Of a stretch of DNA of 64,000 bases, positions 26,086 through 62,185 are shown piece by piece. The translations under genes and the position numbers were made by a program. How positions within the stretch are numbered: position 1 is the first letter of the stretch; every line of letters begins with the position of its first letter. Source of the stretch: Mariprofundus sp. (GTDB lineage Bacteria; Pseudomonadota; Zetaproteobacteria; Mariprofundales; Mariprofundaceae); assembly GCA_021772775.1 (NCBI GenBank), contig JAJFLH010000039.1, positions 1 to 64,000 on the forward strand, in the 5' to 3' direction. The notes under the pieces are model-generated. The model saw only the letters and a program-made list of their open reading frames with translations, was not told the origin of the DNA and ran no database searches.

Positions 26086-26907
26086 CTATAGCAATTTCCA
26101 TAATCGTTTGCCTTTAAAGAGCACCTGCTCCCAGCGCGACACGTTTCCTTCCGGTGTTTCTGTCGCTCCCGACACAAAGTATCCGCCTTTCTGCATACTC
26201 CGTGCGATGCGATCAACTACTTTGGCGCGCTCTTCCGGGGTGAAATAGATCAACACATTGCGACAAAACACCACGTCAAATGGCCCATGCCGACGTACGG
26301 TAGAAACCAATTGATCTTCCACCAGATTAGCATGTGCAAATCGCATCATCTTCTTCAATTCTGGCCTTACATTCCAGCGATTACCATCCTGTTCAAAAAA
26401 ACGTACCAGTTGTTTGATCGGCAAACCACGCTGCACTTCCATCTGGCTGTAAACACCCTTACTCGCCGCAGCCACCGCCTTCACCGAAAAGTCTGTTCCC
26501 AAGATATGTACTCGGCCAGGGCCTGGCACACTCTCACTCGCCGTCATGGCAATCGAACATGCCTCCTGCCCTGTAGAAGATGCCGCTGACCATACATTAA
26601 TCTTGCCATGCGCACCTTTGGCCGCCGTTAATTCAGGAAAAATCAGATCACGCAACGCATCAAAGGGATATTGATCCCGAAAAAACAGTGTTTCATTCGT
26701 TGTCATGGCATCGAGAACCTGCCTGGCCAAATCACCATCAGGTTTCTGGCGAATAGTGCGAGACAATGCATTCACATCATCAAGTCCATGTTCACGCAGC
26801 AAGCGGGTCATGCGCGACTTGATCAAGTATTGTTTATCATTATTCAAAGCCAGTCCAATTTTTCGCAGTAAGAATTCCTGCATAAACTTAAACTCAAGCG
26901 GTTGCAT
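26086..26907 (-). CDS. cheR: Chemotaxis protein methyltransferase CheR
   Basis: 273 aa. N-terminal helical CheR_N domain and C-terminal SAM-dependent domain with NVWSAASSTGQEACSIAM, where the common ACSTGEEPYS motif reads AASSTGQEACS, and FDVVFCRNVLIYF. It methylates Glu residues of MCPs using S-adenosylmethionine. Start ATG 26907 has AAAGGAGG 6 bases upstream. Overlaps cheB by 14 bases; last gene of the chemotaxis operon. Confidence 0.93.
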   Translation of the reverse strand: MQPLEFKFMQEFLLRKIGLALNNDKQYLIKSRMTRLLREHGLDDVNALSRTIRQKPDGDLARQVLDAMTTNETLFFRDQYPFDALRDLIFPELTAAKGAHGKINVWSAASSTGQEACSIAMTASESVPGPGRVHILGTDFSVKAVAAASKGVYSQMEVQRGLPIKQLVRFFEQDGNRWNVRPELKKMMRFAHANLVEDQLVSTVRRHGPFDVVFCRNVLIYFTPEERAKVVDRIARSMQKGGYFVSGATETPEGNVSRWEQVLFKGKRLWKLL

Positions 26908-27973
26908 CTTTGCCTCCTTTCGAAGCCATCTGGCGCAGTGCATCAGCTATTTTATTCAAAGGCAACACATCATGAGCAGCGCCGACTTTAACTGTTGCGC
27001 CGGGCATCCCCCACACGGAACTACTTGCCTTATCCTGCACAATCACATGACCACGCCCTTCATTAATCTGTTTAGCGCCATCAGCGCCATCAACTCCCAT
27101 ACCTGTCAGCACTACAGCGAGTGTTTTCACTGTTGGCGCCAAATCAGCCAAGGAATAGAATGTTCTGTCCACAGCAGGCTTGCAGTGATGCAATTTCGCC
27201 CCATCAATCAACTTCGCAAACAACTTCATATTTTGACGCACCACTTCCATATGAATTTCTCCCGGCGCTAAATATACATGCCCCTGCTGCAGCTCCATGC
27301 CATCTTCAGCCACTTTACATATCAATGCAGACTCTTTATCCAGCCGGGATGCTAGGCTGTATATAAATAACTTGGGCATATGCTGAACAATCACAATCGG
27401 CAACAGCATCCCTGCCGGCAAAGCAGAGATCACCTGACTCAAAGCTGCCGGACCACCGGTACTCGAACCAATAGCAATAATATCGGGCTTAAACGACAGT
27501 GGTCTCTTGAACCGAACCGACTGCGTTTTTGGGCTTCGGTTTTGCCCCCCCACCACCTGGCTTACGCTTTGAGCCATACGCGAACAGCGGGCTAATCGTT
27601 TCGTCAACTCGCCCTGAGCATCGGCACATGAAGCATTGGGCTTTAGAATGAAATCACAGGCGCCTGCTGAGAGTGCTTCAAGGGTGCGTTCAGCATTCGA
27701 TTCTGTTTCGCCTGACACCACAATCACCTTGGTTTGCGGCGCATCTGTTTGCAAAGCATTCAACACATCAAGACCGTGCATCACGGGCATTTCCATATCT
27801 AACACCAGCAGATCAGGTTTTAATTTAACAATCTGCCGCAAAGCCATTTCACCATTACTAGCGGTACCAACCACTTCAACATGATCAATATCGGTCAGGC
27901 AACGGCGCATAAACGAACGAAACACAACCGAATCATCTACAATCAGGGTGCGCAGCACCGGATTGGATCTCAT
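26894..27973 (-). CDS. cheB: Chemotaxis response regulator/methylesterase CheB
   Basis: 359 aa. Receiver domain 1-125 (IVDDS, VLDMEMPVMHG, ending ILKPN) and methylesterase domain from about 165 with catalytic Ser in GSSTGG, His in VQHM and Asp in GMGVDGADG. Removes methyl groups from MCPs when phosphorylated by CheA. Overlaps cheY upstream (ATGA) and cheR downstream. Confidence 0.95.
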   Translation of the reverse strand: MRSNPVLRTLIVDDSVVFRSFMRRCLTDIDHVEVVGTASNGEMALRQIVKLKPDLLVLDMEMPVMHGLDVLNALQTDAPQTKVIVVSGETESNAERTLEALSAGACDFILKPNASCADAQGELTKRLARCSRMAQSVSQVVGGQNRSPKTQSVRFKRPLSFKPDIIAIGSSTGGPAALSQVISALPAGMLLPIVIVQHMPKLFIYSLASRLDKESALICKVAEDGMELQQGHVYLAPGEIHMEVVRQNMKLFAKLIDGAKLHHCKPAVDRTFYSLADLAPTVKTLAVVLTGMGVDGADGAKQINEGRGHVIVQDKASSSVWGMPGATVKVGAAHDVLPLNKIADALRQMASKGGKDATA

Positions 27974-28347
27974 GCACTACACTCCAGGCCAACAATATTT
28001 AACTTACCGGCGATCATATCTTTATCAAAAGGCTTCATTACATATTCATCGGCACCCGCCGCCAGCGCTTTCAGCATCGATGGCATACTCGTTTCCGTTG
28101 TCACCATCACCACTTTTGGAGAGCTGGAGAACTGGCTCATGCCTCGCATCGTGATTAAAAAATCGTAGCCATTCATCACCGGCATATTCCAATCCAACAT
28201 CACCACATCCACATCGGGATGCTCTTCCAATTGCTCTATTGCCTGCAACCCATCGGCAGCTTCGATAGACTCAAAACCCAATTGATTCATAATTCTACCG
28301 AGTGCAACACGTACAACTTTGGCATCATCCACGATCAAAGCTTTCAT
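27970..28347 (-). CDS. cheY: Single-domain response regulator CheY
   Basis: 125 aa receiver: IVDDAKVVR, phospho-acceptor Asp in VVMLDWNMPVMNG, switch Thr in VTTET and Lys in VMKPFDKD. Likely one of two CheY outputs of this operon (the other is at 32031). Overlaps cheB by 4 bases. Confidence 0.92.
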   Translation of the reverse strand: MKALIVDDAKVVRVALGRIMNQLGFESIEAADGLQAIEQLEEHPDVDVVMLDWNMPVMNGYDFLITMRGMSQFSSSPKVVMVTTETSMPSMLKALAAGADEYVMKPFDKDMIAGKLNIVGLECSA

Positions 28348-28487: not shown

Positions 28488-28988
28488 TTAATGCAGTACT
28501 CTCAATTCATCCATATCTTCAGGCTGTGGAATAGTCATGGCGATAAAACGCTCCACATTGACCAGCACAACCACGCGTTCTTCCTGTTTGAGTACACCTT
28601 CACTAACGTCTTGCCAAACACGATCCAACGTTTTGGGGGTTTTCTCAAATGAGTCAGGGTCAAGATCGATTACCTCACCCACTTCATCCATCACCAAACC
28701 AAAATCTTCACCAGACATGGTCTCAACAATCGCCACCCGATACACATCCGTTTCCCGATCAGCTAGGCCAATCACTTTGCGCACATCTAACTGGGTAATC
28801 ACCCGGCCTCGCAAATTGATCAAGCCCATCACAGCATCGGCAGACAATGGCATCTTCGTACATGTTTGTGGCATCACAACTTCCCGCACCTGCCTGACTT
28901 GCAGACCCAACCATTGCTCGCCTACCCTACAGGTTAACAGCTCCTGACTTTGCTGAGGCTGCACTGCTATTAACGCATTTTCACCCAT
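28488..28988 (-). CDS. cheW: Chemotaxis adaptor CheW
   Basis: 166 aa from ATG 28988, with GAGGAGGG 6 bases upstream; an upstream in-frame start would add only 8 residues. CheW fold: LLTCRVGEQWLGLQV, INLRGRVITQLDVRK, DFGLVMDEVGEVI. Bridges MCPs and CheA. Begins 10 bases after the cheA stop. Confidence 0.93.
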   Translation of the reverse strand: MGENALIAVQPQQSQELLTCRVGEQWLGLQVRQVREVVMPQTCTKMPLSADAVMGLINLRGRVITQLDVRKVIGLADRETDVYRVAIVETMSGEDFGLVMDEVGEVIDLDPDSFEKTPKTLDRVWQDVSEGVLKQEERVVVLVNVERFIAMTIPQPEDMDELRVLH

Positions 28989-28998
28989 ATTTCCCTCC

Positions 28999-31941
28999 TC
29001 AGACCTGACCACTGGAGATGCCTTCTACACCTCCGCCAGCTGTTTTTTTCGTTGCATATGAATTCATCATAGATTGCAATGTAGAGGTCATTGTTTGCCT
29101 ATCAAACTTCACCAGCACATCATCAAACAACCCACGTCGTTCATCACCCTGCTCTCCTGGAGGTGTGGCCGTTAGCGCCACCACGGGCACTCCCTTCAAA
29201 CGCTCTTGCGTAGCAATCCAGCGAGCCAGCTCATAACCATCCATATTCGGCATCTCAATATCGGTCAATATCAAATCCGGTACTTTATCAGCTAGAATTT
29301 TACAGGCCTGTACACCATCTTCTGCAGTCCATATCTCACAATCCATCGCTTGTAATACAGGCACCACCAAATTTCGGAAGAAAGGTGCATCCTCGACAAA
29401 CAGAATACTCTGACGCACATGATTAGATTTCTTTTCTGGTGTGCTAGTAAACCAGTCCGGCACAGCGCGTTTGATCACATCAAACACATCCACCACATCC
29501 GTGACCTGGTCCAATATAACAGTGCTACCCAAGAAAAACTCTTTTTGAACCGGCTTCTTAATTTCCAGAGGAACTTCCAAAATATCAACAATCTCATCAA
29601 CTTGCAGACACATTCTATGCTCGCCATCAGATAGAATTAGACCATACACCTCATCACAGTCTGGACTTGGCTGGCCAATCATTTCACCCCAGCGTAACAC
29701 TGTAATCACTTCACCATTACGATACTGCATCACCTCAGAACCGCTGGATGATTCAATTTTATCCGCCGCAAATCGTTCCAAACGCTCAACCAGAGCCATC
29801 GGAATGGCAAAACGACTAGCCTCATGTTTAAACACCAACACATGTTGCATTTCATTCACTGCCACCAACTCTTCATCATGACTTGTCATAACCGCCTGAT
29901 TGGCTTCATCAGAAAGCTCCATCATTTGGGCCAAACCATTACAGTCAAGAATCGGAATCACACTTCCATCACCCAAAATACTACAGCCACCGTACTGATT
30001 GAGTTGCTGAAAATGAACACCAAGTGGTTTGACCACAATCTCCTCAGCACCATAAATTTCATCGATCAGGATACCAAAAGTACGATCTCCCATATCCATC
30101 ACCACAATCGAACCATCATGTGGCACGTCTTCAGCTAATTTCAGAGTTTCAGCCAATTTAAGAATAGGCAATAGACGACCACGCAAGCGAAAGAAGGGCT
30201 GCCCCCCAATACTACGCCAGTCATCCGATGAAGCTCTTGCACTTAACAGTTCATGCACACTGATCTGGGGAATAGCAAAGTGCTTATCACAACAACGCAC
30301 AATCATGGCTGAAATAATCGCCAGAGTTAGCGGAATTCGGATACGGAGCTGAGTACCTTTGCCCATCTCTGAGCTAATATCGACACTACCACCCACTTTT
30401 TCAATGGATGTTTTCACCACATCCATGCCCACACCACGACCTGAGAGGTTACTCACCTTCTCCACGGTCGACAGGCCTGCATTGAAAATTAACTGCAGTG
30501 CGGCCTGATCATTCATTGATGCTGCCACATACTCATCAATCACACCCATCGTTACCGCTTTGGCTTTTACTTTTTCAGCATTAATTCCACCACCATCATC
30601 GGCAACCACAATCACAATAAAACCGGATTCCTGTGCAGCGCTGAGCCGCAACGTACCAGCTTCGGGTTTACCCGCAGCTCGTCGAACATCCGGCATCTCC
30701 ACACCATGATCACAACTATTGCGAATAATGTGCGTCAAAGGGTCTTTCAGTGCAGTCAGAATACTGCGATCGAGTTCAGTCTCTTCACCCTCCATGAGTA
30801 CATTGATGCGTTTATCCAATGATTTACTCATATCGCGCACCACACGCGGCACACTGTTCCATATGGTTTTGATCGGCTGCATGCGAGTTCGTAACAACTG
30901 CGACTGCAAACGCTCTGTCACCTGATCAACTTCACGCCCCACCCGCATAAATTCCATAGAACCTGATTCCTGCACCATGGCCAGCAAACGGTTACGTGTC
31001 AGCACCAGTTCACCGACCTGATTCATCAATGAATCAAGTAGCTCCACATCCACACGGATGCTGCCTGCATTTTTGGGCGTAACTGCAGCTTGCACCATCT
31101 CTTGTGGCTGAGCTTGCGGTTGTGCCTGAACAGCAGGAAGGTTTTTCTCTTCGGGTTCTTTTCTTTCCGGCTCAAGCGTCGCTTCCACAGCAACGGCTTC
31201 AGACTCCACTGCGGCCTTTTCAACCACGACCTCTTTTTCTTCAGTGTTTTTTTTGCTCGCACCACCTTGCGATACTACTTTTTTGGCCAAACCTAATATT
31301 TTCAACGCATCAGATGGCTCTACAGCATCGAGATCACGCAGCGGCGCGAATCCTGCCGCGATGACTTGTTCAGGTGTATGCCAGCCTTGCTCACTCAAGG
31401 CTGCGCGCACATCGGCAGAAAAATCACCTGCCCAATCGTCCACTGTAATGTCACCAGCTACGCTCTCTTTGGCCACTGGAGCTTTTGTTTGTTTTACTGG
31501 CTCTGGGGCGGCTACTGCTTCTTTTGCCACTGACGTAATACCAGCCCCTGCCATCATATCCACCAAACGCTCTGCTGCCTGTAAGCGTGAAATGACCGAA
31601 CTGTGATCCAACACAGGCTCTACCCCATTGGACTCCAAGCCGTGTAAGTAGTCATTGATGCCATCAGCACAATCGAGCAATAAAGAGACAATATCATCAT
31701 TAACTGCAAACTTTAGTGAACGAATTTTACTCAGCAAGTTCTCACCTGCATGCGCCAACTTTTCCAGTCCGCTCAAACCTAAAAATCCACAGCTACCCTT
31801 GACCGTATGGATGACCCGGAAAATCGCATTGACCAAGTCTTCATCTTGAGGATTAGATTCCAAGGCCATCAACTGCTCTTCAATAGAAGCCATATTCTCA
31901 CTGCTTTCAGTTAGAAACTCCGCCAATAATTCCTGATCCAT
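28999..31941 (-). CDS. cheA: Hybrid chemotaxis kinase CheA with two CheW domains and a C-terminal receiver
   Basis: 980 aa. Order: Hpt 1-105 with phospho-His in IHTVKGSCGFLG; an extra small helical domain about 165-230 (TPEQVIAAGFAPLRDLDA); acidic Ala/Glu/Gln linker to about 290; dimerisation helices; HATPase_c (HIIRNSCDHG, ADDGGGI, GRGVGMDVV); CheW-like domain 1 about 535-670; CheW-like domain 2 about 690-825; receiver about 845-960 with LILTDIEMPNMDG. GAGGAG lies 8 bases before ATG 31941. A fused receiver may act as a phosphate sink or feedback domain (inference). Confidence 0.95.
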   Translation of the reverse strand: MDQELLAEFLTESSENMASIEEQLMALESNPQDEDLVNAIFRVIHTVKGSCGFLGLSGLEKLAHAGENLLSKIRSLKFAVNDDIVSLLLDCADGINDYLHGLESNGVEPVLDHSSVISRLQAAERLVDMMAGAGITSVAKEAVAAPEPVKQTKAPVAKESVAGDITVDDWAGDFSADVRAALSEQGWHTPEQVIAAGFAPLRDLDAVEPSDALKILGLAKKVVSQGGASKKNTEEKEVVVEKAAVESEAVAVEATLEPERKEPEEKNLPAVQAQPQAQPQEMVQAAVTPKNAGSIRVDVELLDSLMNQVGELVLTRNRLLAMVQESGSMEFMRVGREVDQVTERLQSQLLRTRMQPIKTIWNSVPRVVRDMSKSLDKRINVLMEGEETELDRSILTALKDPLTHIIRNSCDHGVEMPDVRRAAGKPEAGTLRLSAAQESGFIVIVVADDGGGINAEKVKAKAVTMGVIDEYVAASMNDQAALQLIFNAGLSTVEKVSNLSGRGVGMDVVKTSIEKVGGSVDISSEMGKGTQLRIRIPLTLAIISAMIVRCCDKHFAIPQISVHELLSARASSDDWRSIGGQPFFRLRGRLLPILKLAETLKLAEDVPHDGSIVVMDMGDRTFGILIDEIYGAEEIVVKPLGVHFQQLNQYGGCSILGDGSVIPILDCNGLAQMMELSDEANQAVMTSHDEELVAVNEMQHVLVFKHEASRFAIPMALVERLERFAADKIESSSGSEVMQYRNGEVITVLRWGEMIGQPSPDCDEVYGLILSDGEHRMCLQVDEIVDILEVPLEIKKPVQKEFFLGSTVILDQVTDVVDVFDVIKRAVPDWFTSTPEKKSNHVRQSILFVEDAPFFRNLVVPVLQAMDCEIWTAEDGVQACKILADKVPDLILTDIEMPNMDGYELARWIATQERLKGVPVVALTATPPGEQGDERRGLFDDVLVKFDRQTMTSTLQSMMNSYATKKTAGGGVEGISSGQV

Positions 31942-32030: not shown

Positions 32031-32408
32031 TTAAAACAACATACTGCCAACAGTCTCAATCAAAGCATCCGGCTCAAAAGGTTTGACTAACCAGGCTGAA
32101 ATACCTGAGTCATGACCTACGGACTTTTTCTCTTCACCTGACTCTGTGGTCAACATCACGATGGGGGTGTCAGCATATGCAGGCGTTTGACGCAGAGCTT
32201 TAATCATGCTCAAACCATCGAGATTAGGCATATTCAAATCAGTGAGAATCAGATCGAAGGGGTTATCTGCACTGGCCATCGCCATATCAAGGCCTGCCTG
32301 TCCATCTCTTGCTTCACTCACAACAAAGTCAACGCCCATTAAAGTACGTTTTACGGTAATCCGTACCATGGTGGAATCTTCTACCACCAGAATTCGTGGA
32401 GCACTCAT
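32031..32408 (-). CDS. Second CheY-like response regulator
   Basis: 125 aa receiver with VVEDSTMVR, phospho-acceptor Asp in LILTDLNMPNLDG, Thr in MLTTESG and Lys in LVKPFEP. It overlaps the giant channel-like gene by 4 bases (ATGA), so it is translated with it. Its placement beside CheZ-like domains makes it a candidate target for dephosphorylation (inference). Confidence 0.92.
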   Translation of the reverse strand: MSAPRILVVEDSTMVRITVKRTLMGVDFVVSEARDGQAGLDMAMASADNPFDLILTDLNMPNLDGLSMIKALRQTPAYADTPIVMLTTESGEEKKSVGHDSGISAWLVKPFEPDALIETVGSMLF

Positions 32409-35400
32409 AACTCCTCCTTCAAGACCATACGCTCTTCTTCCATCACATAACGTTTTTCAACTTCTTCTTTCCATATTGCCGTGGCCGGAGCATCAGCTGT
32501 TGTTTTACCCCAATCATGCAAGCATGTTTTCACATTATTCATACGCTGTGATACCCGGTCGATATTCTGTAAGTCAGTCAATGCTGCCATAATACGATCT
32601 TCGATCTCGGGGCTTACCCCCATATCAAGAATCTCAGTCAGCTTGATCAGCCCATCCTCGGCACTCTCTTCAAGCAGTTGGACAGACCCCTCCACCTGCT
32701 TCTCCATCACCTTGAGTAATCGCTTATCGGCAACTTTCGGCCATACTGAATCAGCCATAATTTCGCCCTCCAATACATCTTCAATAGCGGTAACTCCGCT
32801 TTCTTTCACTTCTTCTTTCACTTCTTCAGCCACTTCTTCAGCCACTTCTTCAGCCACTTCTTCAGCCACTTCTTCGGCCACTTCTTCAACCACTTCTTCA
32901 ACCACTTCTTCGGCCACTTCTTCGGCCACTTCTTCGGCCACTTCTTCGGCCACTTCTTCGGCCACTTCTTCGGCCACTTCTTCAACCACTTCTTCAACCA
33001 CTTCTTCGGCCACTTCTTCGGCCACTTCTTCGGCCACTTCTTCGGCCACTTCTTCGGCCACTTCTTCAGCTACTTCTTCAGCTACTTCTTCAGCTACTTC
33101 TTCAGCTACTTCTTCAGCTACTTCTTCAACCACTTCTTCAGCTACTTCTTCAGCCACTTCTTCAGCTGATGCAGCAGTTAACACATCATCCAGGGCCAAG
33201 CGCTCTTCCCGCATCACAAAACGACCCTTCATCTCATCCAACCAGGTAAGCGGCCTATTTTCATTTGGCAAAGTAGCTAGCCAATCTTGCATCGTGTATC
33301 TGACATTGTTCAGCCGCTGATTTACCCGATCTATATTTTGCAAATCAGTCAATGCCGCCATAATCAAAGCTTCAACCTCTTCGCTGACACCCATATCGAG
33401 AATTTCCATCAGCTTCATCAATGCATCTTCAGAGCTCTGTTCCAACATCTCTACTGAACCTGTTACCTGCCTCTGCATTACATCAAGCAGTCGTCTATCT
33501 GCATGCGCAGGCCAACATGACTCTTCTATCAACTCTCCTTCCAGTGCCACGGTACTCGGTGGTATATCCTCTTGCACCACATTAAGCTCTGCAGCGACTT
33601 GCTCTTGCTCCACCACTGCAGCTGTTGCTCTCTCAACCGCCACATTTTCAGACAACACTTTATCAACCTTTGTAACAGCAACCGGAGCATCCTCTTTCAC
33701 ATCTGCCACGGTTACGGCTGGTTTTTCAGGCCTTGGCTCCTTTTCAACCGCCTTAACACGCTTATCTGTTGCCTGATCCGTCTGAGCCAATACACCCCTA
33801 CGACAAAACAACAGCTCTTCACTTTCCAATGGCAGGTCCATTTCCCTCACCTGCACACCACCAAGCAGATGCATAGCATGCATATGATCATTTTGAGGTG
33901 ATGGAAATGTACCATCCAAAGCCTCAAACACATTCCAGCCATCACGCTCATGCTCCGGCATCAGATAGCCCATCAACAACCAACCACGCCGCAATGATTC
34001 ACGATAAACATCGAGCCAATTGATATTGGACTGGTTACGAGCGTCATCAAGCAATCGTGTCACAGCGACACTCTCTACCAGCACCGTGTCACCCAACATC
34101 GCATCGACAAAACGGAACACCTTATCATTATGGCAACTCCCTTCATCATTCACATGTCTATATGCCTCATTGAGCAAGCGCCTTGCCATAAAGACATCGT
34201 GAAACGCATCGGGAGAGCCAACATGTGTCTCAAGCAAGGGATAATCATGCGATGCCTGCACAAAACCAGCCACATTCGTGCCCTCTCTAGGCAGCACCAT
34301 TAACTTCGGTGGCGTCCACCATTTCGCTTTGGCTTTGCGCGCCGACAACATCCGGGAGAGCTCGTGATACCACAGCTCTAACAGAGAGTCTTCGCCACCG
34401 GCTTCAGCACACTGCTCAGGATAGAGCATGATAACTTTGCAACCACGCAGATGAGTGACCAACGCTTCAGCATCAAAGCCATCCCAGACATGCACCGAAG
34501 CCTTTAATTCACAAGCTTGCCCCATCCTTGTAACTACATCCTGCAACTGCCGATTCGCCCTTGTGAGTCCATCTTCGTCACTGGTACTGAACACATGCAC
34601 AGTTAATTTATGATGTTTAAGCGCCATCTCTTCAACCATGGCAGGCAGGCCCTGATGCCAACCCAGAAAGATCATTGTTAAATCCCATGTTTCCGGCCAG
34701 GTGAACGTTTTCAGTCTATTTTGATGCAGGCTATTATCGTATAAACCAGCCTCATCACTCATCGCCCGCGTCATCATACCAGACCACAAACTGGGCGTAT
34801 TTCCTATTGCAACCACATCGCTAAAGCTCTGTTCACCATCAAGCCGCATCAGATCACTGAACAAAACGGGGTCACCCTCTTCATTCATTGCCGCCAAGAC
34901 ATTGACACCCTGCTCAAAACATTGTGTCAACCAGACTTCCAATTCAACCTGAAGCTCATCACCCGGCCGGCTTAGCATTGCAGCACCATCACTGCGCTGC
35001 ACCTTCATACTCCAGGGCAATGAAAAAAGTCCCGTTTCACCCGCCACCACATCCAACAAACGAATACCTAGCTCGGGCATATAGGCACAGTGATGCATCT
35101 GATAGAGCATACGTGCCGTGACCGAAGCCGAATCGAGCACCCCCATATGCAATGATTCACTGTAGAGCGTATGCAAACGCTCCGGCAAAGCCGCATCGGT
35201 CACGACAACACCATTAGCCTTCACGTCACGTTTCAGGTGATGCATATCAACCACATCCTGCTGTTTCTCTTTGCCTTCAGCCGGATGGAAAAAGAACAAT
35301 TGGCGAATCCCGGATAGTTGAAAACGTTCAATCAAAGCGCGCTCACCATTCTCCACCTGACGCACGGTCATCCAGGCACCAATCCTGCGCGCATCAGGCA

Positions 35401-36709
35401 ATGGCTCATCAAAGAAGATCCATACCGAAGCAAAGTTTCGACGCATTCGCCCGAACAGGCGATTGAGTTGTTTTAGAATCGCTACAGACTGCTCATTACC
35501 GCCAACAAAAAGCAGATGTTCTCGCGCCGATAAGGAGCCGTTGGAGAGCTCACGCAGCAGGTAATGCATCACATTCGCCCCCAACCCAACCAACAAGGCA
35601 AAGAAAAACACGCCAGACATCACCAACAGAACAGTCAGACCCATCAACCAAGGGGAGAAAGCCTCAGGAGGCGCGGTACCCGGATCCATAATAATCCTAA
35701 ATACAAACAGCACAATCTGAAACGGCGCATAATCAGCCATATTCACCACATCATCTTCATTGATATCCATTTCTGGATAGAGATAAACCACTGACATTGA
35801 GCCGATCACCAGCAGCGCTATCAACATACCTGTGAGCATACTAAATTCACTGCGTACTGCTGGCATCTTCGCCACTTTACCGGCCGCGATCACAACATTC
35901 TTCAAAGGATTGAGCATTATCAGGAAACGCCCCAAACGTAACAGCACCCAATAGATTGAGAGCTCCGGAATTAAGCCCATCACAGCCACCGCAGCAAAAG
36001 CATCAATGGGTAAAAAGGTCATTTCAGCGGTGCGTCGATTACCTTTCGGTAATATTTTGTACATCGAAAAACCGCGACAACATACTTCCAACAACAACAC
36101 TATGCCTGCATAGAGCCCCACACTTGGCACGGCCAGGCCGATGCCTGCCAGTGCCACCACCAACATCGCAAAGGGCAATGAATAGACAAAGGTATCGTGG
36201 CTTAGAAAACGAAAAATGCGCAGCATACGAAGCAGATACATACCTCGAAAGAGTCGCGCCAGACGCAAATAGAAACCTTCGGACAGTATACTGGAAGGCA
36301 CCAGCATGGCGCTAAACAGGCAGATGGTGGCAATGCCATCAAGAGCCAGAAACAACAACTCCGTTTTGTTTCTCCAGCCATTCTCCATCTGAAGCCACAA
36401 GCGCAAACTCCATTCCAGTGTAAAAAACAGTGCCAGAGGAATCATCACCCATAAATAACGCTCAAAAGCACACAAGCCCAGAGCCACCACAATCAACAGA
36501 GCGTAACGGGGATGTGAAAACACCCGTTCACCCAATAACAACCAGGAGCGCCTACTATGACCACCAAACAACTGATATTTTAAGCCCGTTGTTTGCAGAT
36601 CTTCTGACTCCGACCCACTCACTACCGCATCAGCGGCTTTGCACGGAACCTCAGCCACAGGCTGTGACTGAGGTTGTTGTTCAATATGGATCGACTTCTC
36701 TTCTGTCAT
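32405..36709 (-). CDS. Giant channel-like membrane protein with two CheZ-like domains
   Basis: 1434 aa, not a known named protein. Hydrophilic N-terminus to about 62; TM helices about 68-168 ending in an S4-like helix with Arg at 149, 152, 155, 161, 164 and 167; a second TM group 175-268; pore-like pair 290-385; then a Rossmann/RCK-like cytosolic part starting HLLFVGGNEQSVAIL (about 398), recalling CASTOR/POLLUX-type channels. The C-terminus has two copies (about 1060-1180 and 1310-1434) of a helical domain with LQNIDRVNQ/LQNIDRVSQ, separated by AEEV repeats. No ribosome-binding site precedes ATG 36709; see the heptamer at 36853. Between MCP and cheY, so a role in chemotaxis is inferred. Confidence 0.85.
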   Translation of the reverse strand: MTEEKSIHIEQQPQSQPVAEVPCKAADAVVSGSESEDLQTTGLKYQLFGGHSRRSWLLLGERVFSHPRYALLIVVALGLCAFERYLWVMIPLALFFTLEWSLRLWLQMENGWRNKTELLFLALDGIATICLFSAMLVPSSILSEGFYLRLARLFRGMYLLRMLRIFRFLSHDTFVYSLPFAMLVVALAGIGLAVPSVGLYAGIVLLLEVCCRGFSMYKILPKGNRRTAEMTFLPIDAFAAVAVMGLIPELSIYWVLLRLGRFLIMLNPLKNVVIAAGKVAKMPAVRSEFSMLTGMLIALLVIGSMSVVYLYPEMDINEDDVVNMADYAPFQIVLFVFRIIMDPGTAPPEAFSPWLMGLTVLLVMSGVFFFALLVGLGANVMHYLLRELSNGSLSAREHLLFVGGNEQSVAILKQLNRLFGRMRRNFASVWIFFDEPLPDARRIGAWMTVRQVENGERALIERFQLSGIRQLFFFHPAEGKEKQQDVVDMHHLKRDVKANGVVVTDAALPERLHTLYSESLHMGVLDSASVTARMLYQMHHCAYMPELGIRLLDVVAGETGLFSLPWSMKVQRSDGAAMLSRPGDELQVELEVWLTQCFEQGVNVLAAMNEEGDPVLFSDLMRLDGEQSFSDVVAIGNTPSLWSGMMTRAMSDEAGLYDNSLHQNRLKTFTWPETWDLTMIFLGWHQGLPAMVEEMALKHHKLTVHVFSTSDEDGLTRANRQLQDVVTRMGQACELKASVHVWDGFDAEALVTHLRGCKVIMLYPEQCAEAGGEDSLLELWYHELSRMLSARKAKAKWWTPPKLMVLPREGTNVAGFVQASHDYPLLETHVGSPDAFHDVFMARRLLNEAYRHVNDEGSCHNDKVFRFVDAMLGDTVLVESVAVTRLLDDARNQSNINWLDVYRESLRRGWLLMGYLMPEHERDGWNVFEALDGTFPSPQNDHMHAMHLLGGVQVREMDLPLESEELLFCRRGVLAQTDQATDKRVKAVEKEPRPEKPAVTVADVKEDAPVAVTKVDKVLSENVAVERATAAVVEQEQVAAELNVVQEDIPPSTVALEGELIEESCWPAHADRRLLDVMQRQVTGSVEMLEQSSEDALMKLMEILDMGVSEEVEALIMAALTDLQNIDRVNQRLNNVRYTMQDWLATLPNENRPLTWLDEMKGRFVMREERLALDDVLTAASAEEVAEEVAEEVVEEVAEEVAEEVAEEVAEEVAEEVAEEVAEEVAEEVAEEVAEEVVEEVVEEVAEEVAEEVAEEVAEEVAEEVAEEVVEEVVEEVAEEVAEEVAEEVAEEVAEEVKEEVKESGVTAIEDVLEGEIMADSVWPKVADKRLLKVMEKQVEGSVQLLEESAEDGLIKLTEILDMGVSPEIEDRIMAALTDLQNIDRVSQRMNNVKTCLHDWGKTTADAPATAIWKEEVEKRYVMEEERMVLKEEL
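32806..33167 (-). repeat. About 30 tandem 12-bp repeats coding for (A/V)EEV
   Basis: Inside the giant gene, residues about 1180-1301. The unit reads GAAGTGGCTGAA with third-base variants grouped in blocks, which points to expansion by slippage or unequal crossing over. The product is a long acidic (A/V/K)EEV tract that probably forms a rigid helix or spacer between the two CheZ-like domains. Confidence 0.95.
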
Positions 36710-36834: not shown

Positions 36835-39087
36835 CTACTTGCGTAATCCGTCCAAAAAATCGGCCACCCGTCGCTGTAGCTCATTGCCCTTTTCACTCAA
36901 GCCTGCCGCTACGTTCAACACACCCACAGCAGCCTGTCCGGTCTGCTCTGCTGACTCGGTCACACCACTAATCTCTTCAGAGGCACGATGGGTAGCATCA
37001 GAAGCATATTGCACACTCTGAGAAATCTCATGAGTCGCTGAATTCTGCTCTTCAGTCGCGGCTGAAATAGACTGATTAATCTCATTCATGCGTGAAATGA
37101 TTTCTGAAATATTGCCAATCGCCTTGGCTGCACCATCGCTTTGACTCTGAATTTCACCAATTTTCTCAGAGATTTGCTCCGTAGCTCGTGCCGTCTGATT
37201 AGCCAGCTCTTTCACCTCACCCGCCACCACAGCAAAACCACGACCGGCATCTCCTGCCCTGGCAGCCTCAATGCTGGCATTCAGAGCCAGCAAATTGGTC
37301 TGCTCAGCAATATCGGTAATCACCCGAATCACCTCACCAATCTGTTGAGAGGCTGTAGAGAGTGTACTTACAGTTTCATTGGTTTTATTCGCCTCATCCA
37401 CTGCCTGAGAGGAGATATCCCCTGCTTCATGCACCTGACGGGTAATTTCCGCAATCGAAGCGGACAACTCTTCAGCTGCCGACGCCACCGTCACCACATT
37501 TTGACTGGCTTCCTGTGAACTACCTGCCACAGACTCTGCCTGTGCGGTTGCCTGTTCTGCCATGGCCGAAAGTGACTCTGAAGACTCCTGCATCTGGTTA
37601 CCGAAATCTAAAATTTCACCAACCACAGAGCCGATATTCTGTTCAAAATCATTGGCTAGTTCCTGGCGTACGGTCACATCATGCCACGACACCAGCACCG
37701 ATAGCCAGTTACCCTGAGCATCATCGATAGGATAAGCGGAGAATTCAATATTGCGTCCGGCGGCCTCAAAGCGTGCTGTCATCGGCAAATTGGACCGACT
37801 GGCCAAAATACTACGTTGATGGGCCGGTTTTGCATGGAATATATCAATACATTTACCCACCAGCTCATCTGCACTGCAGGGCAAAAAGGATTGAATACTT
37901 CGAAACAGAGTCACCGCAGATGGATTCATATAAGTGACCGTCAAATCATCCACATTGGCCAGCATCATCGCTTCAGGACTAGCTTCTACCACTCCCTGCA
38001 ACTGGTAAGCGTGGCGCGTGGTCTCTTTGAGTTTATCATATGAGATCACGACTTTTCCGATAGCTCCGGGCACTTGAATATCCAGATCGACAGAGGTATC
38101 ACCATCATCCAGCGCATCCATCGCGGTGCCAATCTGCTCCAACGGCCTGGTCACAGAGCTGGCAATAAACCACAGCAGTACCAACATGCCTACCATCAGC
38201 AGAATAGCCAGACCCCAGAATGTGAATGAGGCAGCGTTATGAATAGAATCTGCCTCTGCGCCCAGCTTATCAAGAAGCTTGCTTAGCTCCGCATCCAAAG
38301 CATCCACCACTGGAGTCACTTTAGCTTTATAGCCCTCTTCAAATCCAGCATGAGTCTCTCGAACTGTCACATAAGCTTTAGCGTAAGCCTGAAAGTCATC
38401 GTCATATTGCTGCAATAGCCTCAGGAGAAAGCGCTGATCCCCCATACTCATGGCTGAAACAGCAACCAGTTCAGAAAAATGCACTACTTCCTTGGCATGT
38501 TTCTGCAGATATTTTTCACTGCCACGCAGCATAAAGTCCTTCTCATATCTACGCATCAGCAGCATGGATACTACCTTTTTGTCACCGCCCAGCTGTTTCA
38601 GTTTAGCTTCAATCTCATGCGCCGAATTGCGTAACTTGCCGCGCAAACCATCTTTTTCCGTCAAACCAAGGTGGATCTTTTCATCTGCAAAATGGTGTGC
38701 ATCAGTATTAAAAGCAAGCAGTGCAGCCCGGCCATCTCCCGCCAGCTGTCGCAAGCTATCGCTCGGCAGTTTTTCACTCAGCATTTTGAATTTTTCCAGA
38801 TTATTCAACTCTAATCGCCCGTAAGCTTCACTTAGCCCATCCGCAGTTTCGAGCATCTGTAACATTTCGATATACTGATTGGAAAGAGAGGTCGCAAGCA
38901 TATCCACCTTCTCCATATGCGCTGCCGCCACATTTTTACGCTGATCCACCTCATCCAAATTGGCCAGTGTCTTCTCATGCACCACGCCCACCAATAAAAT
39001 TGAAAGCAGTACCAATGCACCAATTGCGATCATGCGCTGTGCTACTGTATATTTCTCATGCCACTGCTGTGCCCGTTGAACTGCCAT
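36835..39087 (-). CDS. Methyl-accepting chemotaxis protein with HBM-type sensor and PAS domain
   Basis: 750 aa. TM1 about 18-36; periplasmic helical bimodular (HBM) domain to about 290 with the signature [19 protein letters not shown]2 about 290-312; HAMP; PAS about 365-475; signalling domain with the hairpin tip [23 protein letters not shown] domains are known to bind small organic acids in other MCPs. First gene of the chemotaxis operon, AAGGAGG before ATG 39087. The terminal codons contain a T TTT TTG heptamer. No C-terminal NWETF-like CheR tether is seen. Confidence 0.95.
36853..36859 (-). other. Candidate -1 frameshift heptamer T TTT TTG near the MCP stop
   Basis: In the MCP frame the codons are GAT TTT TTG, six codons before the TAG stop. 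A -1 slip leads into a frame open for 48 codons up to the giant protein's ATG at 36709, and on through that gene. The pattern is seen; its use is unproven. No downstream stem was checked by computation. Confidence 0.35.
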
Positions 39088-57562: not shown

Positions 57563-60500
57563 ATGAGAGAACTCCGCCGCCAACTCGTTGATTTACTGGA
57601 TCAAGCACGTAGCCAACACCGTATGGATACGGTGCCCCCGAGACTCATGGCTGCGCTGGTACAGGATTTCCTCGCTTTATTACCCAAAGGCAAAAGTAAA
57701 CGTATCGCCATGCATTGCCGCACCCTGACCCACGGCAATCTGCACCGGCACATCTTCACCATTCGATGCCCCGACCAGGCCTTTTACCTCGATGCTATTA
57801 AGGGCTATATGAGCCGCTGCGGCATTCAGCCAATAGGCCAACAAACCATGGTAGCGCGCATGACCTGCAGCCCTGATGGCTGCGACTTAGCATTGAAAAA
57901 GCCGGAACTGCACAAATCGAACTCAGCCGATGATGGCAACTTCATGTTCATTGCCTTGCATCTTTCAGCCACGCTAAATCCGGATCCAGAATCCATTCGT
58001 CTGGATATTCAAGCTATTCTTCAGGCTGTTGATCTCTCTGTACGCGATTTTAATGGCATGCGTAAAAACGTCGCCAAGTGTGTTGCCCATCTGATGGGCC
58101 AGGCACCCGATAGCGCTGCCCTACTTGATTGGATGAACGATAATCACTACCTCTATTTCGGCCTCCAACAGCCTGATAAAAAAATGGGCTTGATGAAAAA
58201 CAGACGTGTACTCAAACGGGTCGCGCCCGGACTGAGTGATGACATTGCTGCAATTACCCCTGCCACCGAAGCAGGCATCGAGTGGATCAACCTGCGCGGC
58301 AGTCAGCACTACCTATATAGCGCCGCCAGCATCGAAGTGGTACGCATCAGCTGGCTGAAAACTAATAGCGGCCAAGAAAATCAACAGATCGTTTCCGTCA
58401 TCATCATTGGTCACTTCTCACGCAGCGCCCGCTTTGCCAACGCCAGCTATCTGCCCGTACTGGCCAATCGCTGGCGTAGCTTGGGCAATGACACATTAAT
58501 GCGACACTCAGCCTTTTATCGCCGTGAAATTCGTACCCTGTTTGACCGCATGCCCAAGCGCACCCTATTGGGTACCCGCCCTATTGACTGGTTAGAGCCT
58601 CTGAAATCTATCATCGATCTGGCTGATCCCCTGCAACTGGTCGCCAACATGATTCCATCCACACACGGCAATCTCGACTCCTTGCTTGTCGCCATTTCGG
58701 CCAAGCGATTTGGCCCGGTCGTGATGCAGCGCATGTTAAAGGCTCTCAGTAAAGCAGGATTAAAACAGCACGGTTACGAATCCTTCGGCGTTGGCCCGCA
58801 CCGCATCATTCTCATCTCTATTGAGCGCACAGAAGAGATGATCACTGCCACACAATTACACGCATTAATTCGGAAGTGCATCGTTTTCTGGAAAGACAAC
58901 GCTAAAGCTGAAGTGCTGCGTCACTCAGATATTTTCGATATTCCAGCCACTCTGCAGGAGCTTGAATCCACTCCTCCGTTATATCAGGAGCTGTTTCCGC
59001 CCGCTCAATTCAGTCGGGATGTGCAAATGCGGCGGCGCGTATTGGGGAATCACCGCACCTGTGTGCATGTACGACTCAAAAACACTCATCAACATGAGAT
59101 AGAACTGCATATCTATTCACTTATCCAGCCTTCGCTTGGTAAACTGGTTGATATCATCCGTTCTTTTGATCTTGATCCCGTACAAGAGTCGGTTGTGCCC
59201 TTTGGTTCATCGGAGAGCGGTGACTGCATCCATATCAGTGTATTGACCTGCAGAGCAGAGCGCCACTTGAATAACGAGGATACCATTCGACTTCGGCGTG
59301 GTTTGGCTCTGGTGCTCAACGATGAAGCAGACCACGATCTCATCAATGCTCTCATGATACGTGCAAGCCTTGATATTGATGCGGTTGCCCACCTCATTAC
59401 CCTACGCAACCATCTTATTCAACTGATGCCGGAGGCTGCCAAACTACCTCTTTCGGATATGATGCTGCGCCACCCTGATGTCACAGCAACACTGCACCGT
59501 CTTTTTACAGCTCGTCATCTGGCTGCTATGCCAGAGGATTTCCTCACCGAAGCACGTACATCCTTTCACGAGGCTATGCTCAAAGTCGCCAATTTAAGTG
59601 ATGACCGATGGTTCCACGCTTTAGCTGAATTGGTCGAGGCCGGCCTGAGAACCAACGCATTCATCCGCCAACCGAACAGCCCGCTTGCTATCAAAATTGA
59701 CAGCTCCCGCTTGAGTTTTGCCGCACACCCCAAGCCCTACCGTGAAATATTTGTACACGGTGTTCATGTTGAAGGTATACACCTGCGTGCAGGACCAATT
59801 GCCCGTGGAGGCCTGCGTTATTCCGATCGGCCAGCAGATTTTCGTACCGAAGTATTGGAATTAATGAGCACGCAAACAGTAAAAAATGGCCAAATCGTAC
59901 CCACTGGTTCAAAAGGCGGTTTTGTTGTCCGAGATGGGCAAGGCCCCGAGTTTGTACTGGAGCAATATCGCAACTTCATTCGTAGCCTGCTAGCGCTAAC
60001 TGACAATATGAAGCATGGTAAGCTCATTCCCCCAGAGGGTATTAAAGTTGCACAATGTGACCAAAATGATCCCTATCTCGTTGTTGCCGCAGATAAGGGC
60101 ACGGCACGTTTTTCCGATGATGCTAATGCTGAAGCTCAAGCAAGCGGTTTCTGGCTTGATGATGCTTTCGCCAGTGGAGGCAAACACGGTTATGATCATA
60201 AAGTCGTCGGTATCACCGCACGCGGAGCCTGGGTGTGTGCCATTCACCATTTTGCCAAACTGGGCATAAACGCCTCTACTGACCCGATTAGCTGCGTCGC
60301 GATTGGTGACATGGGTGGTGATGTGTTTGGCAATGGCATGTTATTAAATCCTGCCCTAAATCTCATTGCAGCATTTAATCACCAGCATATTTTTATCGAC
60401 CCGACCCCGAACAGTGCAGAATCATTCAACGAACGCAAACGACTATTCGCCAATGTGAGTGGATGGGGAGAGTACAACACAGCACTCATCAGTGCCGGTG

Positions 60501-62185
60501 GCGGTGTCTTTGAACGCAGTGCCAAAAGCATTAAATTATCTGCCCGTGTCCAAAAAACACTCGGCATTGAAAGCAAGGCACTGCCTGGTGAAGCACTGAT
60601 TCAAGCCATCATCACCGCACCGGTAGATCTGCTCTATAACGGCGGCATTGGCACCTATGTCAAAGCACATAATGAGAGCCACGCGGAAGTACGTGATCCG
60701 GCGAACAATCCTGTGCGTGTTGATGCCCAGGATCTACGCTGCAAAATGGTTTGTGAAGGTGGCAATCTTGGGTTCACACAGAAGTCACGTATCGAATTCG
60801 CAGCAGCAGGCGGCATCATCAATACCGACGCAATGGACAATTCTGCCGGCGTGGACATGTCTGACCACGAAGTAAACTTAAAAATATTGCTGGCTTCATT
60901 GCCCGGCAAAGCACTGCAAGAAAAACAACGCAATCAACTGCTGGAAAATTTAACCGATGCTGTAACCGATCAATGCTTGGAAGATAACCTCCTGCAATCA
61001 CGCGTACTGACCTTGGCTGAGCTTGATGCCATTCAACACCCACCTCGCCTTCAACGGCTGCGCGATCAACTCTCTAGTCTTGGCTGGCTTGATCCTGCGG
61101 TGGCACCGTATATAGAAGACAATGATCTGCTGCATCTCAGACCACAGATTTCCATTCTATTGGGGCAGGAGAAGAACCGCATTCATGCTCAACTCTCTGA
61201 TGAATCATTTTTCCAAACCAGTGCCTTCAGCCAAAACTTGTTAGAATACTATTTCCCTCGTCCCCTGCATCAAAAGTATGGCCGCCATTTCAACAAACAC
61301 CCTTTAGCGAGTGAAATCATTCACACTCAGGCCGCTAATCATATCGTCAACCATATGGGGCTTATCGCAGTACATCATCTGGAGACCATGCTTGATGCCA
61401 GTGTCAGTGAGATCGTCGAAGCTCTACTGATTGCCGAAGCTGTACTCGACACCAATGCCTTACAGCAAGAGATATGGCGTAGTCATCATGAGATGGAAGT
61501 CACGCTGAACCTGCAGCGCACGTTACAAGAGCAAGTGATGTTATTTGCCGAATCGCTATTGCGCTTATGCACTATCTCCCAATTGAATAACGACTGGATC
61601 AGAAAACAACGGCAAGGCCTAAGACGCTTTTTGAAGGGTATTTCTGACCCTGGCATGACAGCCTTGGCAGGCAGCCATCATGCCGCACTGCTGGATAGCA
61701 TCACCACCTCCAATCTGAATAAGAGTCATGCCCTTCACATGGCGGCAATGCCACAAATGGCTCGCTCTGCCTGCGCTGTTCATCTGGCATCACAAATGAA
61801 TATACCTCTGCAGCGCTGCCTTTTGGCTAGCCAGGCCTGCCTGAAGGTTTTACCCATTGAAGCGATGGAGATCCCTCTGCGCAGCTCGGATTGGGGCAGT
61901 GAAGATGCCCATAATTTGCGCCGAGAATGGCTACACCGTTTAACCTTGCTGCAAAGCCGCGCCATTGCGCAACTGTTACAGTCGCCCGGCAAACAGTTTG
62001 ATAAAACAGCCATTTCATTGTGGCAACAACACCGTCACTGGCCTGCTATTGAGACCTATCACCAGCAACACCTGCAAGGCAGCACATCCACCCCATTAAC
62101 AGGTGAAGCACGACGCACAGAGTCCAAGCGCATGCGCCTTTTACTCGCACTTACACAATTAGAATCAATTATTGATCAGAATTAA
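57563..62185 (+). CDS. NAD-specific glutamate dehydrogenase, large type
   Basis: 1540 aa, near the 1600 aa of the GDH-180/GdhB class. Long N-terminal ACT-like regulatory part (to about 690), then the catalytic core with ARGGLRYSDRPADFRTEVLELMSTQTVKNG split by family spacing, PTGSKGGFV, GDMGGDVFGNGMLL (NAD domain) and NGGIGTYVK, then a helical C-terminal domain. Makes 2-oxoglutarate and ammonia from glutamate. Single gene, divergent from radC; no strong ribosome-binding site before ATG 57563. Confidence 0.95.
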   Translation: MRELRRQLVDLLDQARSQHRMDTVPPRLMAALVQDFLALLPKGKSKRIAMHCRTLTHGNLHRHIFTIRCPDQAFYLDAIKGYMSRCGIQPIGQQTMVARMTCSPDGCDLALKKPELHKSNSADDGNFMFIALHLSATLNPDPESIRLDIQAILQAVDLSVRDFNGMRKNVAKCVAHLMGQAPDSAALLDWMNDNHYLYFGLQQPDKKMGLMKNRRVLKRVAPGLSDDIAAITPATEAGIEWINLRGSQHYLYSAASIEVVRISWLKTNSGQENQQIVSVIIIGHFSRSARFANASYLPVLANRWRSLGNDTLMRHSAFYRREIRTLFDRMPKRTLLGTRPIDWLEPLKSIIDLADPLQLVANMIPSTHGNLDSLLVAISAKRFGPVVMQRMLKALSKAGLKQHGYESFGVGPHRIILISIERTEEMITATQLHALIRKCIVFWKDNAKAEVLRHSDIFDIPATLQELESTPPLYQELFPPAQFSRDVQMRRRVLGNHRTCVHVRLKNTHQHEIELHIYSLIQPSLGKLVDIIRSFDLDPVQESVVPFGSSESGDCIHISVLTCRAERHLNNEDTIRLRRGLALVLNDEADHDLINALMIRASLDIDAVAHLITLRNHLIQLMPEAAKLPLSDMMLRHPDVTATLHRLFTARHLAAMPEDFLTEARTSFHEAMLKVANLSDDRWFHALAELVEAGLRTNAFIRQPNSPLAIKIDSSRLSFAAHPKPYREIFVHGVHVEGIHLRAGPIARGGLRYSDRPADFRTEVLELMSTQTVKNGQIVPTGSKGGFVVRDGQGPEFVLEQYRNFIRSLLALTDNMKHGKLIPPEGIKVAQCDQNDPYLVVAADKGTARFSDDANAEAQASGFWLDDAFASGGKHGYDHKVVGITARGAWVCAIHHFAKLGINASTDPISCVAIGDMGGDVFGNGMLLNPALNLIAAFNHQHIFIDPTPNSAESFNERKRLFANVSGWGEYNTALISAGGGVFERSAKSIKLSARVQKTLGIESKALPGEALIQAIITAPVDLLYNGGIGTYVKAHNESHAEVRDPANNPVRVDAQDLRCKMVCEGGNLGFTQKSRIEFAAAGGIINTDAMDNSAGVDMSDHEVNLKILLASLPGKALQEKQRNQLLENLTDAVTDQCLEDNLLQSRVLTLAELDAIQHPPRLQRLRDQLSSLGWLDPAVAPYIEDNDLLHLRPQISILLGQEKNRIHAQLSDESFFQTSAFSQNLLEYYFPRPLHQKYGRHFNKHPLASEIIHTQAANHIVNHMGLIAVHHLETMLDASVSEIVEALLIAEAVLDTNALQQEIWRSHHEMEVTLNLQRTLQEQVMLFAESLLRLCTISQLNNDWIRKQRQGLRRFLKGISDPGMTALAGSHHAALLDSITTSNLNKSHALHMAAMPQMARSACAVHLASQMNIPLQRCLLASQACLKVLPIEAMEIPLRSSDWGSEDAHNLRREWLHRLTLLQSRAIAQLLQSPGKQFDKTAISLWQQHRHWPAIETYHQQHLQGSTSTPLTGEARRTESKRMRLLLALTQLESIIDQN

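Follow-up and report, generated by a model that had tools for sequence, protein, structure and literature searches.

A predicted cation channel with two D-x3-Q tail domains, candidate CheY-P phosphatases, in a chemotaxis operon of Mariprofundus

A chemotaxis operon of Mariprofundus sp. encodes two CheY proteins and has no cheZ, cheC or cheX among its genes, and the question that it raises is whether a CheY-P phosphatase is built into another of its products. A first-pass annotation of the sequence had proposed that a giant protein of the operon carries tethered CheY phosphatases in the form of two CheZ-like domains. The operon lies within a stretch of 64,000 nucleotides, the window, which comprises positions 1 to 64,000 of contig JAJFLH010000039.1 (assembly GCA_021772775.1).

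A che operon that includes a predicted channel gene

The operon reads, in the direction of transcription, MCP, channel-tail gene, cheY, cheA, cheW, cheY, cheB and cheR (Table 1). Its gene content, as first described, was borne out, and both CheY proteins were confirmed by Pfam. The sequence ATGA is common to the stop codon of the 1434-aa gene and the start codon of cheY 1, and a 4-nt overlap with cheY was found in 18 of the 22 complete ortholog frames. The CheA protein contains two CheW-type stretches, with its receiver domain at the C-terminus.

Table 1 Features of the operon and of the channel-tail gene, in window coordinates
Feature	Position	Strand	Basis
Methyl-accepting chemotaxis protein, first gene of conserved cluster	36835..39087	-	Pfam MCPsignal 1.5e-33, PAS, weak HAMP
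Channel with two CheZ-like domains, 1434 aa	32405..36709	-	ORF, sequence
Predicted transmembrane part and two-RCK gating-ring channel fold, residues 1-1000 (43-1000 modelled)	33710..36709	-	AlphaFold2 model
EF-hand/dockerin-like loop DINEDDVVNMAD, residues 315-326, just before pore segment	35732..35767	-	Pattern in 19/34 ortholog loci
Pore-loop candidate DPGTAPPEA, residues 342-350	35660..35686	-	DPG pattern in 34/34 ortholog loci
CheZ-like domain copy 1, residues 1052-1172	33194..33556	-	D1127 33329-33331, Q1131 33317-33319
Acidic low-complexity linker between copies	32795..33193	-	Contains 12-bp tandem array
CheZ-like domain copy 2, C-terminal, residues 1306-1434	32408..32794	-	D1384 32558-32560, Q1388 32546-32548
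cheY 1	32031..32408	-	Pfam Response_reg 2.3e-23; D57, T87, K109, Asn at D+2, Glu at T+2
cheA: Hpt, dimer, ATPase, CheW-like, receiver domains	28999..31941	-	Pfam
cheW	28488..29012	-	Pfam
cheY 2	27970..28347	-	Pfam; D52, T83, K105, Asn at D+2, Glu at T+2
cheB	26894..27973	-	Sequence; PF01339 at G000:C33:26936-27478, E 2e-56
cheR (presumed)	26086..26943	-	Read from sequence

Residues 1-1000 of the 1434-aa protein had no Pfam match. Residues 43-1000 were modelled with AlphaFold2 from 30 sequences (pLDDT 78.9, pTM 0.73); the channel alignment, A3, comprised 29 of 32 channel stretches together with the window protein. Foldseek matched the model to Slo2.2 (3.7e-15) and to the LjCASTOR gating ring (6.3e-15), and further to human Slo1, MtDMI1, GsuK and MthK, and superposition on the LjCASTOR gating ring with VIA-align gave a Z of 21.0 and an rmsd of 5.2 over 480 residues. 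On the strength of these fold matches, residues 1-1000 are predicted to be a cation channel of the Slo/CASTOR type that has two RCK units. The predicted ion-channel fold of the first ~1000 residues was absent from the first-pass annotation.

Slo (BK), CASTOR-POLLUX-DMI1 and GsuK likewise have transmembrane helices followed by two RCK units. The window protein differs from them in that it is only ~10% identical, has a DPG pore segment rather than a K+ filter, carries an additional domain of signalling type at its C-terminus and is encoded in a che operon. The pore segment reads FRIIMDPGTAPPEAFSPW, with DPG where the K+ signature is expected, and the canonical Slo-type filter TVGYG is absent from it. 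The loop just before it could, judging from its residues, be a Ca2+ or other metal site.

At E<=0.001, 55 of the 78 class genomes had a match to the channel part. Fragments aside, orthologs were at least 39% identical and paralogs ~20-30%. There were 34 ortholog loci, two of which hold the same gene, and 22 with complete frames; 21 of these complete frames carry one to three copies of the tail domain, and in the remaining one (L070) the domain is in the next frame, behind an N-run.

Anatomy, conservation and spread of the tail domains

Both D-x3-Q motifs were found where they had been placed, at Asp ~1127 and ~1384. The first, LQNIDRVNQRLNNV, contains D1127-R-V-N-Q1131 (33317-33331) and the second, LQNIDRVSQRMNNV, contains D1384-R-V-S-Q1388 (32546-32560), both in the minus-strand ORF 32405-36709. 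The description of two copies of a helical domain of about 120 residues also held, as the copies are 58% identical over 116 aligned columns (E 1.6e-48) and a hairpin is predicted. The linker between them includes 30 tandem copies of a 12-bp unit (32807-33166) that encode EEVA repeats. Among orthologs the repeat differs between species (EEVA, EAVEAV, EAET, PKVE, QQEV), which fits what is expected of a tether, and the length of the linker possibly varies between strains as well. The hypervariable repeats, both at 32807-33166 and at the equivalent positions of orthologs, interrupt the assemblies of several genomes. Apparent stand-alone copies of the domain in G053, G076, G047 and G022 were set aside, since they arise where a contig stops or where N-runs interrupt the repeat linker, and are not separate genes.

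An AlphaFold2 model of domain 2, built from 38 rows (pLDDT 88, pTM 0.76), is a helical hairpin with helices at 16-49, 54-66 and 69-90 and two short ones. Asp71 and Gln75 of the model come early in the third helix and point 130 and 170 degrees away from its hydrophobic side, a placement which indicates that both are probably exposed. The polar, exposed position that the phosphatase proposal implied is thus the one predicted. Foldseek and VIA searches with the domain returned generic two-helix hairpins, with WXG100 proteins best (Z 8.7); CheZ was not among the best 50 fold matches listed, an absence that does not exclude a CheZ fold.

The bare D-x3-Q pattern is common, with 28 occurrences in 10,907 aa of window proteins, so the weight of the motif rests on its conservation. 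A first collection of 27 domains had been gathered by motif and was circular for D and Q, and the count given here comes from profile hits. Both residues were retained in 45 of 45 distinct near-complete copies, which were chosen by profile score with ten partial or weak rows left out. Within Zetaproteobacteria 19 of 119 columns are invariant, so that D and Q are not singled out inside the class. Copy 1 of the window clusters with the first copies in G060 and G063, away from the C-terminal copies, and both groups keep the motif.

At E<=0.1 the domain profile matched 44 of the 78 class genomes, 43 of them strongly and one at 0.049. In the phylum sample it matched 46 of 398 genomes, and all matches outside the class were weak. 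A scan of 84,980 species genomes returned 43 loci, titled Mariprofundus, Mariprofundaceae, Mariprofundales, Ghiorsea or Zetaproteobacteria apart from two labelled only as proteobacteria. Within the collections searched, the domain is confined to Zetaproteobacteria. One weak match, in G382 (L065), was dropped as spurious; it has no chemotaxis neighbours and adjoins a QueE-like gene.

The last copy of the domain is a separate small ORF in G001 and G003, which indicates that the domain is able to stand alone, and in L066 the domain is present without the channel. In G001 (L069, 5366-7370) the channel gene carries three copies, and the fourth is a separate 117-aa ORF before cheY. CheB was found in 41 of the 43 class genomes with the domain compared to 17 of the 35 without it (p = 2.6e-6, a statistic that ignores kinship). 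The domain was also considered as a replacement for CheX; CheX was over the cut-off in 9 of the 43 genomes that have the domain and 5 of the 35 that lack it, and no such claim is made from these counts.

Relation to CheZ and to a bridging D-x3-Q family

The profile comparison with CheZ that the first-pass annotation had suggested gave no support: PF04344 matched neither domain, nor the whole protein, nor any member (0/38) of A2, the alignment left from 45 copies once near-duplicates (93% or more) were dropped. No PF04344 match was found in the genome itself. None of the 78 class genomes had one over the cut-off and 77 had none at all; the sole sub-cut-off match, in G024, was dropped as spurious because it falls in a gene that we take from its sequence to be SelO/YdiU-like. 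Pfam, NCBIfam and PDB sequence searches with the protein and its domains gave no informative match. DUF5623 was treated as a probable chance match: it hit 15 of the 38 members with E 0.0027-0.1, each well short of the cut-off, and in the window protein it covered 38 residues. Direct comparison of the domain with CheZ by hhalign scored 14-16, with a reversed CheZ control reaching 20. CheC, CheX and FliY would do the same job but differ by their motif, E-x2-N, and the window protein had no Pfam CheC or CheX match.

The phylum search returned two distant relatives, L063 and L064, which are the C-terminal tails of chemoreceptors of ~400 aa and adjoin cheY. A profile built from these two tails (A4) matched 116 of 398 genomes, and its matches comprised the window family, more chemoreceptor tails, stand-alone proteins and CheZ genes called by PF04344. 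Two CheZ genes, G161:C173 and G104:C1, were found by both profiles, and in G172:C4, G080:C30 and G123:C71 the matches of A4 and PF04344 overlap, the latter below its cut-off. Stand-alone members of 190-230 aa (L132, L136, L143, L146) read FQFYDKLTQRLDHV, then YTMEEER and finally DDIELF. Members of this bridging family adjoin cheY or cheB, and neither Pfam nor NCBIfam recognised the D-x3-Q part of L063, of L064 or of two stand-alone members. The unnamed family shares with the window domain Q-x2-D-x3-Q and Y-x-M-x-E-E-R, as well as the cheY neighbour in L063 and L064; it differs in that most members end in D-I-T-F-F or D-D-I-E-L-F type peptides, none is fused to a channel, and they belong to other classes of the phylum. 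The D-x3-Q family is widespread in the phylum, and the chemoreceptor tails L063, L064 and L122-L130 mostly end in a TFF peptide.

Chemoreceptor-tail (15) and stand-alone (4) sets, cut around the motif by pattern, were used for hhalign. The window family aligned with the bridging family at 97% (E 1.5e-11; score 65, with 15 as the highest value among shuffled and reversed controls), and the link survived masking of the motif (E 7e-7 to 3e-6), so that kinship between the two is firm. The bridging family aligned with CheZ at 32-73% (score 29-36; controls at most 18.4), and with the motif columns masked the score fell to 19-20, the control level; the relation to CheZ therefore rests on the FQ-D-x3-Q stretch. 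These results indicate that the window domain is, by sequence comparison, clearly related to an unnamed family that comprises small proteins and the tails of chemoreceptors, and that this family resembles CheZ mainly through the FQ-D-x3-Q stretch, whether by common descent or by convergence. When 17 rows from the wider family are aligned (A5, 29% identity), the only invariant columns are the Q, D and Q of Q-x2-D-x3-Q, a result biased toward the motif because the rows were hand-picked from profile hits.

The active site of CheZ lies in the FQ-D-x3-Q stretch, as stated in PMC7750401. The A-x2-FQ segment that precedes the motif in CheZ is not kept in the window copies, which read DLQNI there; in the bridging chemoreceptor tails FQ precedes D, and some of them have A five residues before D. 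The C-terminal peptide of CheZ, of the DDLLDSLGF type, binds CheY, and the window protein ends in RYVMEEERMVLKEEL, without such a peptide. The window domain is like CheZ in its D-x3-Q pair on a predicted hairpin helix, its chemotaxis operon and its probable CheY-P substrate, and unlike it in lacking a Pfam or direct profile match, A-x2-FQ and the C-terminal peptide, and in belonging to a channel.

Probable tethered phosphatases and alternative readings

Taken together, these observations favour, with a probability of roughly 0.6, the reading that both domains are response-regulator phosphatases of the D-x3-Q type on a tether to a predicted membrane cation channel. The reading is based on the retention of D and Q in all 45 copies and their invariance in the wider-family alignment, on the bridging family through which the domain is linked with CheZ-like proteins, on the position of D and Q on the polar side of the helix along with the 4-nt overlap with cheY and the co-occurrence with CheB, and on the lack of PF04344 in 77 of 78 class genomes next to an adjacent CheY that keeps its key residues. 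The original proposal of tethered CheY phosphatases therefore stands in part. The invariant D-x3-Q on the polar side of a predicted hairpin helix, the coupling to cheY and the bridging family speak for it, and the lack of PF04344 or direct CheZ profile similarity, of the A-x2-FQ segment and of the C-terminal peptide, the dependence of the bridge on the motif, the many other invariant columns within the class and the generic fold matches speak against it.

By analogy with CheZ, we infer that the tail domains may act as CheY-P phosphatases. Two domains, of one channel subunit or of different ones, would come together as a four-helix bundle; the domain Asp would enter the active site of CheY-P and touch its Lys, and the domain Gln would orient the attacking water, both as in CheZ. 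In CheZ, according to PMC3035606, the inserted Gln147 orients water and an acidic residue contacts the receiver Lys, and PMC3510030 gives D-x3-Q as required in both CheZ and NarX. The substrate would be the CheY encoded directly downstream (cheY 1), and the phosphatase, on its long tether, would stay close to the membrane.

The tail could instead be a CheY docking domain without catalysis that holds CheY or CheY-P at the channel, either as a sink or for control of gating by CheY-P, from chemotaxis to the channel. The overlap of the gene with cheY is consistent with docking, gating rings are natural ligand-binding regulators, and a tandem arrangement on long acidic tethers would favour capture; moreover, the paralogous channels of other che clusters end in D-D-[VI]-E-L-F, a docking-like peptide common to CheZ-like proteins. 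Docking by itself leaves unexplained why an Asp and a Gln at a spacing of four are among only three invariant columns of the wider family, and we regard it as rather unlikely.

Improbable is a structural hairpin of the channel, such as a tetramer clamp or cytoplasmic assembly domain, in which D-x3-Q would serve capping or packing and the linkage to chemotaxis would be incidental. The many further invariant columns of the domain and fold matches to merely generic hairpins, e.g. WXG100 proteins, would suit such a role, but a hypervariable repeat linker parts the domain from the channel, L066 has the domain but no channel, G001 and G003 encode a copy of it as a separate ORF, and 24 complete paralogous channel frames do without it. 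A degenerate DHp domain of a HisKA_3-type histidine kinase, whose HD-x3-Q-x-L resembles the ID-x3-Q-R-L of the domain and whose D-x3-Q, according to PMC3510030, is also a phosphatase motif acting on a response regulator (as in NarX), is very improbable, as the phospho-acceptor His is missing in 45/45 copies (I, V, L or F there), there is neither an ATPase domain nor a HisKA_3 Pfam match, and hhalign against five HisKA_3 sequences only scored 14.5 and aligned elsewhere.

If the tail domains are tethered phosphatases, the state of the channel may control them, which we put forward tentatively. The gating ring could present or hide the phosphatase. With less certainty, binding of a ligand or ion to the RCK gating ring, or voltage, might alter its accessibility, and the channel might then act as a second input lowering CheY-P, beside the receptor-CheA pathway.

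As to a cheZ elsewhere in the genome, which had been named as something that would tell against the proposal, PF04344 found none, yet a 325-aa D-x3-Q protein and two CheC-type genes lie outside the operon. One of the CheC-type genes, at G000:C28, belongs to another che cluster and is joined to a receiver; the other is at G000:C30. The second che cluster, G000:C22, contains, in this order, a paralogous channel, cheY, cheA, cheW, two MCPs, cheR, a 208-aa gene that is presumably CheD-like by its position, cheB and the 325-aa CheZ-like protein (L192, 7439-8413, minus strand), which reads LQFEDISRQSL and matched the profile at E 1e-12. The paralogous channel (L088, 7683-10553, minus strand; 957 aa) lies directly before cheY and has no CheZ-like domain; it ends in DDDVELF, a terminus similar to that of the CheZ-like and of the 208-aa proteins. 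Similar gene sets occur in G062, G047, G034 and G076.

None of the 24 complete paralog channel frames has a tail domain, and nine of them end in D-D-[VI]-E-L-F or DDDIFF; channels with this type of end are L088, L193, L195, L207, L209, L211, L213, L214 and L087. The ending was found in 5 of 5 paralogs with che neighbours compared to 4 of 19 without (p = 0.003, ignoring kinship), and we read it from its sequence as a putative docking peptide. It is conceivable, if somewhat doubtful, that an ionic or electrical input bypasses receptors and CheA by way of a CheY-P phosphatase controlled by the gating ring, and that this channel family has been wired to che clusters at least twice, by fusion to a phosphatase and by a docking peptide beside a D-x3-Q protein.

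The hosts, marine iron oxidisers of the Mariprofundus group, inhabit steep chemical gradients, and if the phosphatase reading is true, a channel would be tied directly to their swimming behaviour. The occurrence of a Slo/CASTOR-like channel and a CheY-phosphatase-like domain in one conserved protein makes a direct link between channel and chemotaxis testable, and the wider D-x3-Q family could provide the missing CheY phosphatase in chemotaxis systems annotated without one. Searches of the open literature, with subscription papers outside their scope, returned nothing joining an RCK domain with chemotaxis and CheY, or a gating ring with bacterial chemotaxis and an ion channel; titles and the starts of abstracts in the open literature gave nothing of the kind for CheZ in Zetaproteobacteria or for a CheZ domain and chemotaxis. 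Elsewhere in the window, an ORF of 1540 aa lies on the plus strand at 57563-62185.
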